64,000 nt of DNA from Phycisphaerae bacterium (GTDB lineage Bacteria > Planctomycetota > Phycisphaerae > UBA1845 > PWPN01). Position 1 is the stretch's first letter. Every line of letters starts with the position of its first letter. The position numbers and the translations under genes were made by a program. The DNA lies in the NCBI GenBank assembly GCA_012729395.1, contig JAAYDF010000284.1, forward strand, positions 66,441 to 130,440, given 5' to 3'. The notes beneath the pieces are model-generated. The model was not told where the DNA came from. It did not search any database and was given only the letters and a program-made list of their open reading frames with translations. This document shows positions 5,030 to 19,661 of this stretch, piece by piece.

Positions 5030-5845
5030 TTACCGCAACATCAACATCAAAGCCTGACGACGAAGCTCACGATCGTCACTGCTGTCGCCCCGACCCGTGT
5101 TGCCCGCCCACACGTCGTACGCGGTCCGCGCCTGGGCGCCTCCCGTATACGCCGAGTAAACCGGCTCGAACGGCCAGAACAACTCACGCACCTTCAACCC
5201 AAACCACGCCAACGGCGTCGGGGGAACATACACAATGTCCCCTTCCTTCAGCAGGAAGTTCTGCTGCAAATCACCCGTCTGGGTAATCTTCTCCACATCC
5301 ACGGTGATGACGTGTCGCTCACCCTCCGAGGCACTCGGGCGAATCACCTGTACCCGCTCCCGCCAGGCCAGGAACGTCGGTTGGGACCTCGCCACGATAT
5401 CCATCACCGTGTCGCGGCCGGTGTACGCCAGCTTCCCAGGTGTGCCCACCTGACCGAAAACGTAGATGTTCTTGCTGTTGTATGCGGAAACCTGAACGTT
5501 GACCTGCGGCGAAACATAATACCGCGCCAACAGTTCCTCGATCTTGGCGGCCAGCTCGCGCGGCGTGAGCCCCGATACCTTCACTTCGCCCAGCAGCTTC
5601 AGCGAGATCTTGCCGTCGCTGCGCACCATCTGCATCGTGCCGTCCACTTCCGGGGCGTTCGGTGAATTGATGGCCACCACGTCCGGCGGCTCAATCCGGT
5701 AGTTCGTCGCCGAAACATCCTGCTCGTGAGACTGGGAGAAGTGCTTGAGGTCCGTGTATTTCGTGGAACAGCCCGCGACGGCCATCAGACAGGCCACCAC
5801 GATCCACAGTGCCGCGTGCCGCAATCCCTGCTGCTTTTGCCGCAT
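5030..5845 (-). CDS. Polysaccharide export outer-membrane lipoprotein (Wza-like, Poly_export/SLBB)
   Basis: A 271-residue lipoprotein. The signal sequence ends in a lipobox, LMAVAGC, with the acylated cysteine at residue 26. Then come the Poly_export domain (NYRIEPPDVVAINSPN to VSPQVNVQV) and one SLBB domain (NIYVFGQVGTPGKLAYTGRDTVMDIVA to EGDIVYVPPTPLAWF). The extra C-terminal ~60 residues contain FWPFEPVYSAYTGG and a charged end. It would form the outer-membrane channel for the polysaccharide. It is first in the minus-strand operon, so the operon promoter should lie in the 290 bases shared with the divergent AAA+ gene. An AGGGATG sequence precedes the start. Confidence 0.9.
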   Translation of the reverse strand: MRQKQQGLRHAALWIVVACLMAVAGCSTKYTDLKHFSQSHEQDVSATNYRIEPPDVVAINSPNAPEVDGTMQMVRSDGKISLKLLGEVKVSGLTPRELAAKIEELLARYYVSPQVNVQVSAYNSKNIYVFGQVGTPGKLAYTGRDTVMDIVARSQPTFLAWRERVQVIRPSASEGERHVITVDVEKITQTGDLQQNFLLKEGDIVYVPPTPLAWFGLKVRELFWPFEPVYSAYTGGAQARTAYDVWAGNTGRGDSSDDRELRRQALMLMLR

Positions 5846-6135
5846 GGCGTCATCCCTGACAGAGAAACCGATCCGTCATTCCCCGCCGCCGGCTTCCTGC
5901 CGACCACCGTGCCCGAAGACACGGCCACGGCTTTCAACCAGCCGCCGTGGTTGTCTGCTGTCATCGGTTCGATAACCGCGCCGATGCACTTATCTCCAGT
6001 TTTTTCTACGCCGCCTCCCGGCTTCTCAAGACCCAACGTCTAAGGTCCGATAGAACCGCTTGGACGATTGAACGCGCTGGCCGTCCGATAACCTACAAGG
6101 AAGGCGGAGACGGCCGTTAAGGATGGAGCCCGACC

Positions 6136-9100
6136 ATGTACTGTACACACTTCGGCCTGCACCGGCCGCCGTTCAACAACACCCCCGACCCCACCTTCTA
6201 CCTGAGCACTCCAGAGCACGAGGAGGCCCTGGCTACCCTCCAATATGCCGTCACCCAACGCAAAGGGTTCGTCCTCATCACCGGCGAGGTCGGGGCCGGC
6301 AAAACATTGATCGGACGCATGTTCCTCCGCCAGATGGACCGCAACGCCGCCGTCGCCGTCATCACCCATACCAGCCTATCCGGGCGACAGCTTCTGGCGG
6401 CGATCTGCGCTGAGTTCGAACTGCCCGTCCCACCCGAAGCCACCAACCTCCAACTGGCCGAACAACTGCAAACTTTCCTGCTCGATCAGTTCGCCCAGGA
6501 CCGATTCGTCGTCGTCCTCCTCGACGAAGGCCAGAACCTGCCCGATGACAGCTTCGAAGAACTCCGCATGCTCGGTAACCTCGAAGCCGACGACGCCAAA
6601 CTGCTCCAGGTCTGCATCCTCGGACAACCGGAACTGCGCGACCGGTTCCGGCAGCCCAGTCTCCGACAACTCGACCAGCGGCTCTTCCGCCGCTTCCACC
6701 TCTGCTCGCTCGACCGCCAGACGACCGAGACCTATATCCGACACCGTCTCGCCGTAGCGGGCTACGCCGGCACCGACTTGTTCACGCCCGAGGCCCTCGA
6801 CGCCATCTATGCCGCCAGCCAGGGAACCCCGCGCATCATCAACCAGATCTGCGACAACGCCCTGCTGACCGCCTACGGCCAGGAGGCCCACCAGGTCGAC
6901 AAGAACACCATCACCAAAGTGCTCGAACACGACCCCGTACTGCATGCACCGCCACCGGCCCCGAACGACCGGCAGACAATCGAAACAGCCCCGGCTCTGC
7001 CCGCAAACGACACCAGCGGGACGCCATCCGGACCGGATCCAGTCTCCAGGCCGGCTGACTTGCCCGTGGCCAGTCGCGAAGAACTTGACGCGCTCGCCGA
7101 GCACGTGAACCGCCTGAAGCGTCAGGCCGAGAACCAGCTTGAAAGCTTCCGCGAAGACATGCGCGCCGCGCTCGCCCAGGCCCTCGACCAGTACCGGACC
7201 ATCCAGCGGCAATTCGAGGACATGACAGGCAACACGGCCGCCGACGACCTCGACCGTATCCGCAAACAACACCTGAGCGAAACGCGACGCATCATCGCCG
7301 AGATCACCCAGCAAAAAGAGCAGTTCCATCAACTGCTCGCCGACGCAAACCAGCGCTGGACGGAAACCCAAAACCAGATCGCCGCCCACTCCGACCAGCC
7401 GCTGCCCAGCAAACGACTCGCCGAACTCGAAGCCGAGTTCGACGGCCGACTGCACGAAGTCCTCGAACACCTCGACCTGCAACGTCAGCAAGTCGCCAAC
7501 CTCGCCCAGATCCTCCGCGACCACTGCGAACGAACGCGACAGGATCTTGATGAGGCAAGACAGAACCAGATTCAACTCCATGAACGCATGACCGCCGACG
7601 CTCAAACCCGATTCGACGATCTCCGGGCTACCCTCGAAGCACGCCTGCGCGAACAGGATAAGCAACTGCACGCCCTCGACGAGACCCTGGCCGCCCGGAT
7701 GGCCGCCGCCAGCGAGGCCGTCGAGAAACTCAACGCCCGGTCGGCGACCACCGCGGAACTCGATCGCATCCGCAGCGAGCAGACCGCCGCACTGAATCAA
7801 CTCCTCCGCCAAATCGGTCAGCAGGGCGATGAATTGGCCGGCCTCGAACGCCAACTCGCCCAGCAGTCCGACTCCGACAACCAGCAGCGCAAAGCCGCTC
7901 TCGACGAACTCCGAACCGCACTCAATGAGCAGGATCAGCGGGTGCGCCGCCTCCGCCATCGGCTCACCGAACGGCTGCAGGAAGCGGAGAAACGACTCGT
8001 TGCCCTGGATGAGCAGTGCGCCCGCAAAGCGGACCTGGAAAACCTGCGAACCAGCCAGGAAGCACGCTTTCACGAGGTCCGCGACGCCCAGACCTCCTCC
8101 ATCGCCAAAGTCCGCGAAGACCAGCAGGCGATCGCCAAGATACTGCGCACCCGACAAGAAGCGGATGTCCAAACCCTTCGTGCCACCTTCGATGCCCGCC
8201 TGCGCGAACAGGAGCAGCGGCTGCAATCGCTCGACCACGAACTGGCCGAGCGGATCGCAACCACGGACAGGGCGATCACCGAACTCGGCTCCAACTCGGC
8301 CAGCGCCAAGGACCTCGAAACCTTCCGCACTGAGCAGAGTACCGCACTGAGCAATCTACTCCACCGAATCACCGACCAAGCAGACAGCTTGACCGACCTG
8401 CAACGACAGATCGCCGAACAGACGAACGGCTTGACCGGCCTGCAAGACCAAGTCGCTGACCAGACCAGCGGACTGACCGGCCTACACCGACAGCTCACCG
8501 AGCAGTCAGAAGCCAACAACAAGGATCACCAAGCTATCCTTGACGAGTTCCGCACCACCCTCGCAGATCAAAACCAGCGAGTACACCACCTGCGCCAACG
8601 GCTGATCGAGCTGCTCCAGGCCGCGGAGAAACGCTCCGCCGCCCTCAGCGAGCATTTCGCCCGCAAGGACGATGTCGAGGCACTTCGTAGCACACAGGCA
8701 GCCGCCGTCGCCGACCTTCGACACAACACAGAGACCCAGGCGGCCGCCATCCTCGATCGACTCGAAGGTGACCGCCAGACAGTCCGGCGATTGATCGGCG
8801 GCGTCGCCCAGCGGTTCCGCGCCACCCATCAGCAAATCGCGGAACTCGCCTCCACCCGGGCTACGAACGAAGCGGTCAGCACCCTCGATGCCCGCGAACA
8901 GGCGGACACGCAACGCGTCCTCGCCCTGCTCGATGAGTACGGCCAAAGCATGGAGCGACAGTTCGCCGGCGTGGCCGACCAACTCCACAACGCACACGAG
9001 GAAATCGAGACCCTCACCAAAACCGGAGCCCGGGCAGAGGAACTCGAACGCCTCGAACAACAGCAGACCAACGACCGCGAGAAGGTGCTCACCACCCTCG

Positions 9101-10299
9101 CCGCCCAACGACGAGATCTCGAATCACTCGTCGACACCGTCAACCAGCGATGCGAGAACCTCGACCGGCAACTGCAGGCCCTGCCCGCCGACCTCGCGAC
9201 CGTGCCCCAACTCGATGCCATCCGCACCGAGTACACCACCCAGCTGCAGGCGGTCACCAACGACCTCGAGGCTCGCAAGACCTACCTCGAACAGTCGATC
9301 CAAAAGGTGGCCCGACATTGCGACCAGGCACACGCCGCGGTCAAAACCCTCGCCCAGCACGCCGCCTCCAGCCAAGAGGTCAAGCAGCTCCGCCAGGACC
9401 AGACCCAGCGTTGGCAGGAACTCCAGCAACGGCTCAACGAACAGGGCAACCGCCATGACCACAGCGTCCAACTGCTGGCTGGCCACATCCGCCATCACGA
9501 GGAACGCGTCGCCCGCATCGAGACCAGCGAACGACCGCGGCCCGTCCACATCGAGCTGTCGCCGCAGGAGTCCTCTAAACTCGCCGACGCCGTCACCGCC
9601 GCACGAACCGAACACGAACAACTCACCGACGCCGTCGATCGCGCCGGGGCCATCGCCTCGCACCTGTCCAACGCCTCCACCGAAGTCCAGCAGGCGATGA
9701 CCGTCTGGCTCCAAAACGCCAACGAGGTCCGGCAGCAATCCGAGCAACTCCGCACCTCCGCCCAGATGGCCTCCCGCATCCTCGAGGCCATGCGAAAGTG
9801 CCACGCCACACTCGATCAGAAACTGAACTCGAAACGGTGGCAGGCTGAATTGACGCGGGGCGAGCAACTGGCCGGACGCCTCGAACAGGCCACCAGCGAG
9901 GCCAAAGTCGTCGTCGAGCGGCTCCAGGCCGCCCTCGATGACTTCGAAGCCTGCGAGGCCTCCGCCCAGGAATGGACGAAGAACCATCAGGCCGCTCGGC
10001 AAACCACCGACCGACTCGCCAAGCTGCTCGATGCCGCAACCAAGACAAGCAACCAGGTCGATAAGTCGCTCGGCCAACGCAAGCAGGCCCTCGCCGCCGT
10101 CGCGCGCAATACCAGCCGGCTCGTCTCCATCATCGACGACGCGCGGAAAAACGACGAGAAACAACGTCCCGCTACCCAGCCCGCCGATGCGGAAGATACG
10201 CCCCGGCCTACGCGCCCGGCCAGGCAGCGCATCCCCGCGCAGGTCGCGCCCATCAACTGGCCCGCGTTCCGCACCCACACCGCCGCCGAGGTCGGCTGA
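6136..10299 (+). CDS. XrtA-locus AAA+ ATPase fused to a ~1,000-residue coiled coil
   Basis: A 1387-residue protein. Residues 1-270 are an ExeA/GspA-type AAA+ ATPase of the kind found in PEP-CTERM/exosortase polysaccharide loci. It has CTHFGLHRPPFNNTPDP at the start, Walker A GEVGAGKT at 50-57, Walker B VVVLLDEGQNL with D130/E131, and sensor-like GTPRIINQICDNALL near 237. A Pro-rich linker follows (about 270-315). From roughly residue 320 to 1340 the sequence is almost pure heptad-type coiled coil rich in Gln, Arg, Glu and Leu, with no visible membrane segment. Residues 492-641 and 677-853 are diverged copies of one block. Locus ATPases of this family are usually about 270-350 residues, so the tail is exceptional. 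The start has GGAG seven bases upstream. It diverges from the export/Wzz operon and probably energises or scaffolds export; the tail's role is unknown. Confidence 0.88.
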   Translation: MYCTHFGLHRPPFNNTPDPTFYLSTPEHEEALATLQYAVTQRKGFVLITGEVGAGKTLIGRMFLRQMDRNAAVAVITHTSLSGRQLLAAICAEFELPVPPEATNLQLAEQLQTFLLDQFAQDRFVVVLLDEGQNLPDDSFEELRMLGNLEADDAKLLQVCILGQPELRDRFRQPSLRQLDQRLFRRFHLCSLDRQTTETYIRHRLAVAGYAGTDLFTPEALDAIYAASQGTPRIINQICDNALLTAYGQEAHQVDKNTITKVLEHDPVLHAPPPAPNDRQTIETAPALPANDTSGTPSGPDPVSRPADLPVASREELDALAEHVNRLKRQAENQLESFREDMRAALAQALDQYRTIQRQFEDMTGNTAADDLDRIRKQHLSETRRIIAEITQQKEQFHQLLADANQRWTETQNQIAAHSDQPLPSKRLAELEAEFDGRLHEVLEHLDLQRQQVANLAQILRDHCERTRQDLDEARQNQIQLHERMTADAQTRFDDLRATLEARLREQDKQLHALDETLAARMAAASEAVEKLNARSATTAELDRIRSEQTAALNQLLRQIGQQGDELAGLERQLAQQSDSDNQQRKAALDELRTALNEQDQRVRRLRHRLTERLQEAEKRLVALDEQCARKADLENLRTSQEARFHEVRDAQTSSIAKVREDQQAIAKILRTRQEADVQTLRATFDARLREQEQRLQSLDHELAERIATTDRAITELGSNSASAKDLETFRTEQSTALSNLLHRITDQADSLTDLQRQIAEQTNGLTGLQDQVADQTSGLTGLHRQLTEQSEANNKDHQAILDEFRTTLADQNQRVHHLRQRLIELLQAAEKRSAALSEHFARKDDVEALRSTQAAAVADLRHNTETQAAAILDRLEGDRQTVRRLIGGVAQRFRATHQQIAELASTRATNEAVSTLDAREQADTQRVLALLDEYGQSMERQFAGVADQLHNAHEEIETLTKTGARAEELERLEQQQTNDREKVLTTLAAQRRDLESLVDTVNQRCENLDRQLQALPADLATVPQLDAIRTEYTTQLQAVTNDLEARKTYLEQSIQKVARHCDQAHAAVKTLAQHAASSQEVKQLRQDQTQRWQELQQRLNEQGNRHDHSVQLLAGHIRHHEERVARIETSERPRPVHIELSPQESSKLADAVTAARTEHEQLTDAVDRAGAIASHLSNASTEVQQAMTVWLQNANEVRQQSEQLRTSAQMASRILEAMRKCHATLDQKLNSKRWQAELTRGEQLAGRLEQATSEAKVVVERLQAALDDFEACEASAQEWTKNHQAARQTTDRLAKLLDAATKTSNQVDKSLGQRKQALAAVARNTSRLVSIIDDARKNDEKQRPATQPADAEDTPRPTRPARQRIPAQVAPINWPAFRTHTAAEVG

Positions 10300-16695: not shown

Positions 16696-18894
16696 TCAAT
16701 CGCCCTGAGCATGAGTGCCGCAGTCGGGATCCAGCCACACATCCGCTGTACCCAGACACCGGCGAAATGAAACCAGATCGGCGTAGTCCACGTCCGGGTC
16801 GCCATCCAAACGAGCGTTGACACAGGCGATGTCCGGCTGCGACACAAACGGACCACTGAGACAACGCTGAAAAATGCCGAAGTCATCCAGGTCCACATCG
16901 CCGTCCAGATCAAGATCCTGCTTCGGCGGACAAACCTGCTCGATCGCGTCCAGGTAAACGATGAAGGGCCCCGCTTCGCCGACCGAGCTGAACGCCAGAT
17001 GTTCGAGGACGCCCCTGTGGTGCGCCGCCGCGAGCACCCCATCGCCGGTGAAGCCTTGTACCGGATCAGCGGTCGGCGTGAAGGTGAACGTCTGCCAAAC
17101 ACCGGGCTGCGCCGTCACCAGCACGCCTTGCGGGGCACCGCTCTGCACGCTGTGTGCGCCTAGCCACTCGATCGGCCCAATCGTGCCGCCGTCGGCGCCG
17201 ATCGGTACATCCACACCCGTCTCGCGAATCCCCGCACACAGACGAAACGAGCCGGCATCCACGCGCAACCGAACACGAATCGGCCGGCGAAGGTTGATGG
17301 CCGGGTTGGGTAGCGAAGCCGCGTCGTTCGTCGTCAGCCGTAACCAGCGATGCGGGCCATCATCCACGAAGGCCCATTGCACCTTCAAGACCCGGTTGCC
17401 GTCGAACGCCTCAACCGCGTCCGTCGTCACCGCCGAGTTCGGCGAGGCCGTTAAGTGCCCGGACGTAGACCCAGAGGTCCGCGGTGCGCGGAACATGACC
17501 TGTGCGTCGGGAGCGTAACCCTCAAAAGGCGCGATCCGCTGGCCGCTGCACAGCTCCGGGGCCAGCACGCTCACGTGCCGCGTCCGCGTAGCCATATCGC
17601 TTCCGCCCGGCCCGGTCACCACAAGGGTCACCGTGTAAGCCCCCGGCTGCGTATAGGTCCAAAGCGGATGCGTGGCCGTCGAGGTCGAGCCGTCACCAAA
17701 GCTCCAAAGCCGACTCCCAATGGGGCCGGTCGAGCCGTCAGTGAATTGCACCGCGAACGGAGCAACCCCGGCAACGGGTTCCGCGGTGAAGGCGGCCACC
17801 GGCGGCTGAATGGGCGGCGTGCCGATCGCCCCGGCCGGATACCGCATCGCCACCGCGTCCCCATACGCGGTGTAAAGATCCCCCGTGGAGCCCGGCGGGT
17901 TCCCCGCACCCTTCCAGTACTCAAGCGAGTACCCATCCCAAGACCCACTCCCATCACCGCCGTCATACACAAACCAAGCCATGCAGATGATGTTCTGGTT
18001 ACCCGGCGTCTCGTTCCAGGCGTGAACATCGGCGAAGGCATCGCGGAGAAACTGAGCAGCGAGGGCCTCCTCGCGAGTGTTACCCGGCGAGGCGTGGCGA
18101 TTCCACTCCGTCATGTAGACCGGCCGATCCTGCAGCCCCTCACCGCCAATCACCGCAAGCTGCTCGATGTAGGCCTGACGGAAATCCGCCAGAGACCCGC
18201 CGTAGGCATGAATCGCGAAGCCGTCGATCTCGTCTGCCGGGATGCTCTGAATCACTTGCCGGAGCCACTCCGCGCCGGCCATCCATCGCTGCGGCAACCA
18301 GACGCCACCGGGACTGGGCGGGGCGATCAGCACACGGTGCGGGCCAGCCGGGCTAGCCTGAGCTTGACTATGAATCGCCGCCCGGACGCTGCGATACGTG
18401 GCCGCGTAGCCGGCCGGGGTGACGCGATTGTCCGGCCAGCCCTGGCCCTCATCGATCAGGTTCGGCTCGTTCCCGATGATCCACAGGTGGGCGTACGGGG
18501 CCAACTGGTTGACCGTCTGCACCACCGCCGCCGGCCAGCCGGCATGATCGGGGCTGGTCGGCGAGGGCACCGTCTGACCCCAAACGTAGTCGATGCGAGT
18601 GAGCAGGGAGACGTTCTTGTGGGTGTAGAGATCCTGGTAGCCCGGCACGAAGTACGCGGCCCGCCACCAGGGATCGCCGTGAGTCAGGACGACTTCGACG
18701 CTCCATCCGCCATAGGTCGGGCACTGGAGCAATTCCGCGGGTCCGCTGTCGACCGGTTCACCCCCGCGAAGCCCCCAGAAATGCACACCGTACAGCCATG
18801 GCGAGTCCGCCCGGACGGCCCCGCCCCAAGCGAACGCCAACCCCAGCCCAACCAACCCCGCCAGTCGCCCTATTCCACCCCTCTCCCTCACCAT
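16696..18894 (-). CDS. Secreted GH-like protein with PKD and dockerin-type domains
   Basis: A 732-residue exported protein with a signal peptide ending near AVRADS (about residue 29). Residues 33-350 look like a (beta/alpha)8 glycosidase of clan A: WIIGNEPNLIDEG gives a candidate acid/base E143 and PVYMTEWNRH a candidate nucleophile E263. Residues 364-442 are a PKD domain (LWSFGDGSTSTATHP). Residues 450-655 form a beta-rich region, probably carbohydrate-binding (LDAIEQV at its end). Two dockerin-like calcium loops close the protein (DLDLDGDVDLDDFGIFQRCL at 659-678 and ARLDGDPDVDYADLVSFRRC at 693-712). Such tails are frequent on planctomycete surface proteins. The substrate is probably a polysaccharide but is not identified. 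Confidence 0.78.
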   Translation of the reverse strand: MVRERGGIGRLAGLVGLGLAFAWGGAVRADSPWLYGVHFWGLRGGEPVDSGPAELLQCPTYGGWSVEVVLTHGDPWWRAAYFVPGYQDLYTHKNVSLLTRIDYVWGQTVPSPTSPDHAGWPAAVVQTVNQLAPYAHLWIIGNEPNLIDEGQGWPDNRVTPAGYAATYRSVRAAIHSQAQASPAGPHRVLIAPPSPGGVWLPQRWMAGAEWLRQVIQSIPADEIDGFAIHAYGGSLADFRQAYIEQLAVIGGEGLQDRPVYMTEWNRHASPGNTREEALAAQFLRDAFADVHAWNETPGNQNIICMAWFVYDGGDGSGSWDGYSLEYWKGAGNPPGSTGDLYTAYGDAVAMRYPAGAIGTPPIQPPVAAFTAEPVAGVAPFAVQFTDGSTGPIGSRLWSFGDGSTSTATHPLWTYTQPGAYTVTLVVTGPGGSDMATRTRHVSVLAPELCSGQRIAPFEGYAPDAQVMFRAPRTSGSTSGHLTASPNSAVTTDAVEAFDGNRVLKVQWAFVDDGPHRWLRLTTNDAASLPNPAINLRRPIRVRLRVDAGSFRLCAGIRETGVDVPIGADGGTIGPIEWLGAHSVQSGAPQGVLVTAQPGVWQTFTFTPTADPVQGFTGDGVLAAAHHRGVLEHLAFSSVGEAGPFIVYLDAIEQVCPPKQDLDLDGDVDLDDFGIFQRCLSGPFVSQPDIACVNARLDGDPDVDYADLVSFRRCLGTADVWLDPDCGTHAQGD

Positions 18895-18905
18895 CCACCC
18901 CGCAG

Positions 18906-19661
18906 AAAATGGTGTCAGGATGATTTTTGCGCGGCCTTCCGGGGGCGGCCACGCGGACGCAACGTCAAATCCAACCGCAACTTAGCCGCAATCCGGGCCT
19001 TCCACCGATCCGTGCCGAGGGGCATACCCCGCACGGTAGCGTGCCGCACCTCCTGGAGCGGTTCATCGGCCAGTGGACGGTTGACATCCGCCAGCCAGCC
19101 ACGCGGGCGATCCACAGGCCATTCCGCCAGCCGGTCCCTCAGCGGCCCCTCACCCGTCCGCCGCAACCACAGACTGCACCACCGCCACTGCTCCGCCCGA
19201 TCCACCAAGCCCGACCGGAGAGCATTCGCCTCAACATAGCGACAGACGGTCAGGAAGTGGGCATCCTCCTCGACCGGAAAACTCTTGAACCGGCCCTGAT
19301 ACAACGGCCCCTCGCCGGTCGTCCGGGAATGCGTCCGCCAGCGGTGGGTATGCGTGACCGTCACCCACTGCATCCAGGTGGACAGGTTGGTACGCTCGCC
19401 CGCAAGCACGACAAGATGCCAGTGATTGGGCATCAGGCAGTACGACAGCAACCCGGGAGCGTCCAAACGCCCCAGCCCCTCCGCCAGCACCTGCTCGAAG
19501 GCCAGGTAGTCCCCGTCCTTCTCGAACATGGGCAAGCGCATCACCCGGCGATTCAGTAGATGATAGGCAACGCCCGGTTCCGTGATTCGCTGTGGCCGTC
19601 CCATTTCACCAAATTACCACCCCCCCTGGCGATGTCAAGAAAATCATCCTGACACCATTTT
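18906..19661 (-). mobile_element. RAYT transposase element bounded by 22-bp inverted repeats
   Basis: The left end 18906-18927 contains AATGGTGTCAGGATGATT and the right end 19640-19661 is its exact reverse complement over 22 bases. Between them is one transposase gene. The stop codon of the transposase (18915-18917) lies inside the left repeat, and the stop codon of uppP (19644-19646) lies inside the right repeat. The element length is 756 bp. No target-site duplication was recognised. Confidence 0.78.
18915..19604 (-). CDS. REP-associated tyrosine transposase (RAYT, Y1/HUH type)
   Basis: A 229-residue Y1 transposase. It begins MGRPQRITEPGVAYHLLNRR. The metal-binding HUH motif is MPNHWHLVV with H61 and H63. 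GPLYQGRFKSFPVEED is the conserved loop, and the nucleophilic tyrosine is Y123 in CRYVEANALRSGLV. WRWCSLWLR and a basic tail (LRPRGRPRKAAQKSS) follow. RAYTs cut single-stranded hairpin repeats and are thought to spread REP sequences. The gene is complete and uninterrupted and its stop codon is contributed by the flanking inverted repeat. It sits between the secreted glycosidase gene and uppP, all on the minus strand. Confidence 0.9.
   Translation of the reverse strand: MGRPQRITEPGVAYHLLNRRVMRLPMFEKDGDYLAFEQVLAEGLGRLDAPGLLSYCLMPNHWHLVVLAGERTNLSTWMQWVTVTHTHRWRTHSRTTGEGPLYQGRFKSFPVEEDAHFLTVCRYVEANALRSGLVDRAEQWRWCSLWLRRTGEGPLRDRLAEWPVDRPRGWLADVNRPLADEPLQEVRHATVRGMPLGTDRWKARIAAKLRLDLTLRPRGRPRKAAQKSS

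Follow-up and report, generated by a model that had tools for sequence, protein, structure and literature searches.

The 64,000-nucleotide stretch of a Phycisphaerae bacterium genome analysed here (GenBank assembly GCA_012729395.1, contig JAAYDF010000284.1, positions 66,441 to 130,440; hereafter the window) contains, at 6136-10299 on its forward strand, one uninterrupted open frame of 1387 residues in which an N-terminal AAA+ ATPase domain is joined to a segmented coiled-coil rod of about 1,030 residues. This long-rod ATPase is a lineage-specific form, with tails that reach about 1,500 residues across much of one order of the Planctomycetota. Its architecture is conserved, its tail is under purifying selection, the distal tip is better conserved than the rest of the rod, and the gene is linked to a set of polysaccharide export genes. 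We propose, with about even confidence, that the protein acts as a cytoplasmic tether or scaffold which joins the export machine to a putative second partner. The original prediction, made from the sequence alone, had described a polysaccharide-locus ATPase with a long rod beside Wzz, a BY-kinase and an exporter, and this description was borne out by the comparison of loci; its coordinates, strand, single frame and two nucleotide-binding motifs are all correct.

Architecture of the long-rod ATPase

The head (residues 1-264; 6136-6927, forward strand, as for all features within this gene) matches NCBIfam family TIGR03015 over model positions 1-264 of 269 (E=1.4e-74, 250.9 bits), and is also matched by Pfam AAA_22. 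It contains a Walker A motif GEVGAGKT (residues 50-57; 6283-6306), where T49, G50, E51, G53, G55, K56 and T57 are invariant among 13 relatives, and a Walker B acidic box DEGQNL (residues 130-135; 6523-6540), in which D130, Q133 and L135 do not vary and E131 hardly does. An AlphaFold2 (AF2) model of residues 1-365 has an AAA+ fold, with a mean predicted local distance difference test (pLDDT) value of 80, and the nearest solved structures found by Foldseek are TnsC, MuB and Cdc6/ORC (best matches TnsC, ORC2 and MuB); a sequence search of solved structures gave no relative of the window ATPase. With both Walker motifs and the predicted fold present, the head is identified as an AAA+ ATPase. Although its sequence shows a relationship to TIGR03015, the protein is not filed as a member because both its score and its length fail, the curated cut-off being 324.5 bits; in an order-wide profile search this cut-off was reached in no genome of the window's order. 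A 620-residue antisense frame (6376-8238, reverse strand), open across the ATPase and coil region, is most likely a by-product of high guanine plus cytosine (GC) content.

The head is followed by a Pro/Ala-rich linker (about residues 265-312; 6928-7071) that is predicted to be disordered (pLDDT below 50 at 272-311), and in the model a long helix starts at residue 314. The segmented rod itself (residues 313-1346; 7072-10173), rich in Ala, Leu, Gln, Arg and Glu, is recognised by its coil score, by the AF2 models and by the retention of the coil in relatives. The coil score exceeds 1.3 at 76% of residues 320-1340, compared with a mean of 32% and a maximum of 45% in 100 shuffles of the same residues, and at 0% of the ATPase domain; this COILS-type score was calibrated on the shuffles and is interpreted solely relative to them. 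The coil is weaker at about 841-930, at 1111-1140 and beyond 1320, and with these three interruptions its earlier description as near-continuous was slightly generous. AF2 modelling of residues 900-1387 yields, at low confidence, long helices only (900-1343), with short breaks and a disordered end. No Pfam domain was found in the tail, nor, as predicted, any membrane segment, the top 19-residue hydropathy mean being 0.64, compared with 2.33 in the neighbouring Wzz protein. The distal part of the rod (residues 1121-1346; 9496-10173) is conserved, its family profile matching seven of seven locus orthologues at their C-termini. Beyond it lies a C-terminal stretch (10174-10296) of low pLDDT, predicted to be disordered, that includes the terminal peptide INWPAFRTH (residues 1373-1381); a profile built on residues 1350-1387 finds six of these seven orthologues, again at their C-termini. 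GC content by codon position is approximately even from end to end of the gene, and no match to a structured RNA in Rfam was found anywhere in the window.

Distribution and origin

Head and tail are encoded together in a single frame across many independent assemblies and genera, chromosome-sized contigs included, and nearly all matches bearing organism names are labelled Planctomycetota or Phycisphaerae. Within the same order (Phycisphaerae, Planctomycetota), 54 of 100 sampled genomes, each at least 80% complete, contain one or more matching frames of at least 1000 residues. The frames listed from other orders of the class are mostly 270-400 residues long, the longest being 556, and none reaches 600 residues; elsewhere in the phylum most frames are of 265-500 residues among the matches listed. 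Six long frames from outside the class were inspected and have different arrangements, with a coil fraction of 0 to 0.14 where the tail was measurable and, in two of the six, the ATPase at the C-terminal end. The earlier expectation that family members are short therefore holds outside the window's order and fails inside it, where long frames are common. The architecture is also less rare than supposed, as most close relatives are long-tailed too; an equal length in most relatives, named in the original prediction as an observation that would refute it, was half found, since close relatives are long but differ in length, and those outside the order are short.

A tree of the ATPase domains, with support values of the Shimodaira-Hasegawa-like approximate likelihood ratio test (SH-aLRT) obtained in a quick search only, places the long-tailed locus proteins from three families in one cluster (25 rows, SH-aLRT 93). 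A medium-tail group (35 rows, mostly 200-430 residues) has an SH-aLRT of 98, and the short proteins of the class form a separate group. Short forms are also present in export gene sets of other bacteria: a 439-residue form lies within a canonical XrtA operon in Nitratidesulfovibrio, and a 294-residue form adjoins Wzz and BY-kinase genes in Rhodobacter. The ancestral unit was therefore probably the short head by itself, to which the rod was added. One contig labelled Alphaproteobacteria (locus L130) carries a Phycisphaerae-type ATPase locus close to that of L110, and is probably mislabelled or mis-binned.

Evolution of the tail

The tail is under purifying selection, with ratios of nonsynonymous to synonymous substitution rates (dN/dS) of 0.06-0.19 in five computable pairs, and its conservation, as the mean of 20-column blocks, is 0.29-0.44, versus 0.75-0.79 for the head. 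Two segments of the window gene, at 7621-8027 and 8176-8666, are copies of an internal duplication within the rod (68-70% identity by blastn within the gene), and the second is missing from the family orthologues. A clean 29-residue indel separates two proteins with identical ATPase domains, and 22-residue indels were found in two other pairs; these lengths are all sums of 7 and 11, albeit in three events, too few for a claim that register is preserved. Sequence comparison thus indicates that the rod lengthens both by internal duplication and by single indels. Within a single genus (g30) the tails are of 734, 800 and 884 residues, and tail length shows no correlation with the length of Wzz (Spearman 0.05, n=24).

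In three families, conservation within the tail is highest at the distal tip. Identity in family f7 is on average 85% over the block RVGQLVGIIRQLYGSMDARI, more than the ATPase mean of 76%, and 72% over the final helix, SLGELVQRNQKLNEWLKETL; in family f8, SRLAKQVESLLQL recurs at the very C-terminus. In f1, the family of the window protein, four of the five best tail blocks lie within residues 1132-1338, another good block is found at 991-1010, and a terminal INWPxxRTH-like peptide is present in six of seven locus orthologues. Homology of the tails across families was considered and rejected, as the f1 C-terminal profile gives only weak and misplaced matches elsewhere; the tips therefore appear to be clade-specific.

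The export locus

Of 62 non-redundant loci, 61 have the ATPase gene and a Wza gene back-to-back; the remaining one is a short-form locus. In the window, the intergenic region from which the ATPase and export genes diverge is at 5846-6135, and across loci this gap ranges from -1 to 676 bases. The genes on its other side, all on the reverse strand, encode a Wza-type export lipoprotein (Poly_export and SLBB_2 domains; 5030-5845), a Wzz-type chain-length protein related to TIGR03007 (3219-5000), a BY-kinase-like tyrosine autokinase related to TIGR03018 (2269-3183) and a FemAB-family protein, TIGR03019 (918-2135; 288 bits versus a cut-off of 260), which occupies the same place in 24 long-tail loci. 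The first three are conserved neighbours: in the loci of relatives, Wza is normally followed by Wzz and the BY-kinase, with FemAB present too in the long-tail families. FemAB near the ATPase tracks tails of at least 500 residues (24 loci with both, 27 with neither and two long tails lacking FemAB), an association that is confounded by family. The next glycosyltransferase gene (stp1, TIGR03087) scores 329 bits versus a cut-off of 317. Downstream of the ATPase gene, the window has methyltransferase and prenyltransferase genes that are not seen near it in the compared loci.

No exosortase was found on the window's 139-kb contig (C260), nor near the locus in relatives with chromosome-sized contigs, where the exosortase lies more than 1 Mb away. 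The exosortases of the window's own genome sit on two other contigs (C37 and C325) and score under the XrtA cut-off. The locus is an XrtA-type export gene set with no exosortase at the locus; the earlier label of "XrtA locus" is justified to the extent that FemAB and the stp1 glycosyltransferase pass XrtA-system cut-offs, and misleading with respect to the exosortase.

Possible function of the rod

A rod of variable length that links a conserved head to a conserved tip, with a terminal peptide past a disordered stretch, argues for a spacer or tether. In such a tether, the head, on the cytoplasmic side of the export machine, would bind and hydrolyse ATP; the flexible linker would lead into a long, putatively cytoplasmic rod, roughly 150 nm if fully extended (0.15 nm per residue), and the conserved tip, together with a short C-terminal docking peptide, would bind the putative second partner. 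The rod would then be a spacer whose exact length is uncritical, and the export complex would be held to something distant. A rod that is selected order-wide and conserved at its tip may be seen as a handle on the ATPase, and its tip should bind a partner. External support for the importance of the head in export comes from Sphingomonas sp. LM7, where PrmE, an AAA+ ATPase and putative relative whose gene lies between those for Wza and Wzz, is essential for exopolysaccharide (PMC11340318).

Three observations weigh against a tether at the export machine. First, the AF2 model of the tail is of low confidence (mean pLDDT 63, predicted TM score 0.27) and monomeric, and the coil may fold back instead of forming a parallel extended rod. 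Secondly, the terminal peptides differ among families, and if they are docking peptides the surface of the partner must have changed as well. Finally, second long-tailed copies occupy unrelated gene neighbourhoods, which indicates that such tails are not confined to polysaccharide export systems.

Among other explanations, the best is that the rod chiefly oligomerises the ATPase head as a multimerising stalk, with a length that drifts neutrally and a tip that nucleates assembly of the coil. The fast drift of rod length and sequence and its growth by internal duplication would fit such a stalk, and trigger sequences are often the conserved part of coiled coils. However, long tails have been kept across most of the order under purifying selection, and a conserved terminal peptide, beyond the coil and past a disordered stretch, would not be needed for pure self-assembly. 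We consider the stalk a possible but rather unlikely explanation. Polymerisation of the rods into a cytoskeleton-like filament, the fibre of which positions the export machinery, seems less probable still. The long, briefly broken coil, rich in Ala, Leu, Gln, Arg and Glu, broadly resembles intermediate-filament-like bacterial proteins, and several long paralogues per genome occur in the order, but the rod sequence is unconserved across families, unlike that of proteins which pack laterally. It is very unlikely that the protein is an SMC/Rad50-like, DNA-associated one, even though the fold of its head is near those of TnsC, ORC2 and MuB and an NCBIfam SMC model matches the coil (E=5.8e-11). This match, of 41 bits versus a cut-off of 567, is confined to the coil, as the composition of coiled coils would yield; moreover, the head is of the AAA+ type, lacks the second ATPase half of SMC proteins, and is encoded by a gene tied to export genes.

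A ruler had been suggested alongside a scaffold in the original prediction; as a molecular ruler, the protein would set how long the polysaccharide chains are or how far apart synthesis and export lie, and fusion of the rod to an ATPase encoded beside Wzz would be in line with it. A fixed ruler is nevertheless rejected as highly improbable, since rod length is not conserved, varying within genera and by single indels among near-identical proteins, and is uncorrelated with that of Wzz; the scaffold or tether half of the suggestion fits the conserved tip and the neighbourhood. That a sequencing error joined the ATPase gene to a separate downstream gene is refuted by the recurrence of the fusion as one gene across independent assemblies, genera and chromosome-sized contigs, and by the even codon-position composition along the gene.

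If the tether is real, these Planctomycetota would organise secretion through the envelope from the cytoplasm by means of long rods, an arrangement undescribed in the papers searched; a literature search of openly licensed papers found none on the long-tailed form. More tentatively, and with rather less confidence than in the tether itself, the proteins could form a class of cytoplasmic tethers, tolerant of changes in length and not described before, with AAA+ heads, coiled-coil rods of 500-1,500 residues and clade-specific conserved tips. Across the order they would hold export machines and, via paralogues, other systems to a distant partner, for example the nucleoid, a cytoskeletal element or the synthesis enzymes.

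Paralogues and other observations

A second long-tailed ATPase, of 1149 residues, is encoded in the same genome on contig C356 (L032:8114-11563). Its gene ends on the first base of a gene whose 211-residue product has hydrophobic segments at its N-terminus, matches no family and may be a membrane partner; the same pair with a one-base junction is found at L040, where the two proteins are of 2267 and 216 residues. A further paralogue group of about 1250-2180 residues (L062, L064-L071, L138 and L139) lies in unrelated neighbourhoods, where the context gives no clear function, and its members mostly end in a helix like RAEEISxLIEDAKRA. Genomes of family f2 (L056-L059) encode long-tailed ATPases of 791-1473 residues where the frame is complete; an exosortase match was found nowhere in these genomes, and one of the loci (L057) has a flagellin-like gene at a distance of about 9 kb.

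Elsewhere in the window, a 732-residue secreted-looking protein (16696-18894, reverse strand) has a PKD-like repeat and, at its C-terminus, DxDxD patterns like those of dockerins, and is adjoined by a REP-associated transposase (18915-19604).

Comparison with known systems

SMC and Rad50 proteins likewise combine an NTPase head with a coiled coil of great length, but the head of the window protein is AAA+ rather than ABC, single and N-terminal, and the similarity is weak and compositional. ExeA/GspA, the type II secretion assembly ATPase with partner ExeB/GspB, has a related AAA+ head and a C-terminal extension, and one relative, on an Ideonella plasmid, is encoded beside GspB. ExeA/GspA has a membrane segment and a periplasmic part, whereas the window tail has neither a membrane segment nor a peptidoglycan-binding domain. 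An interaction of ExeA/GspA with peptidoglycan is described in PMC4098917.

PrmE, from the promonan cluster of Sphingomonas sp. LM7, is comparable in that its gene, for an AAA+ ATPase, is flanked by those for Wza and Wzz, and the BY-kinase is encoded separately; a long tail is unmentioned in the relevant passages of PMC11340318. Also among the closest known counterparts are the short TIGR03015-type proteins of about 270-440 residues. In comparison, the window protein has 1387 residues, about 1,100 of them extra, and its gene is divergently transcribed instead of lying inside an operon, at a locus with no exosortase. Shared with them are an N-terminal AAA+ domain that matches over the full length of the model and the same set of neighbours, i.e. 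the export protein, Wzz, BY-kinase, FemAB and a PEP-CTERM-type glycosyltransferase, as in Nitratidesulfovibrio vulgaris.

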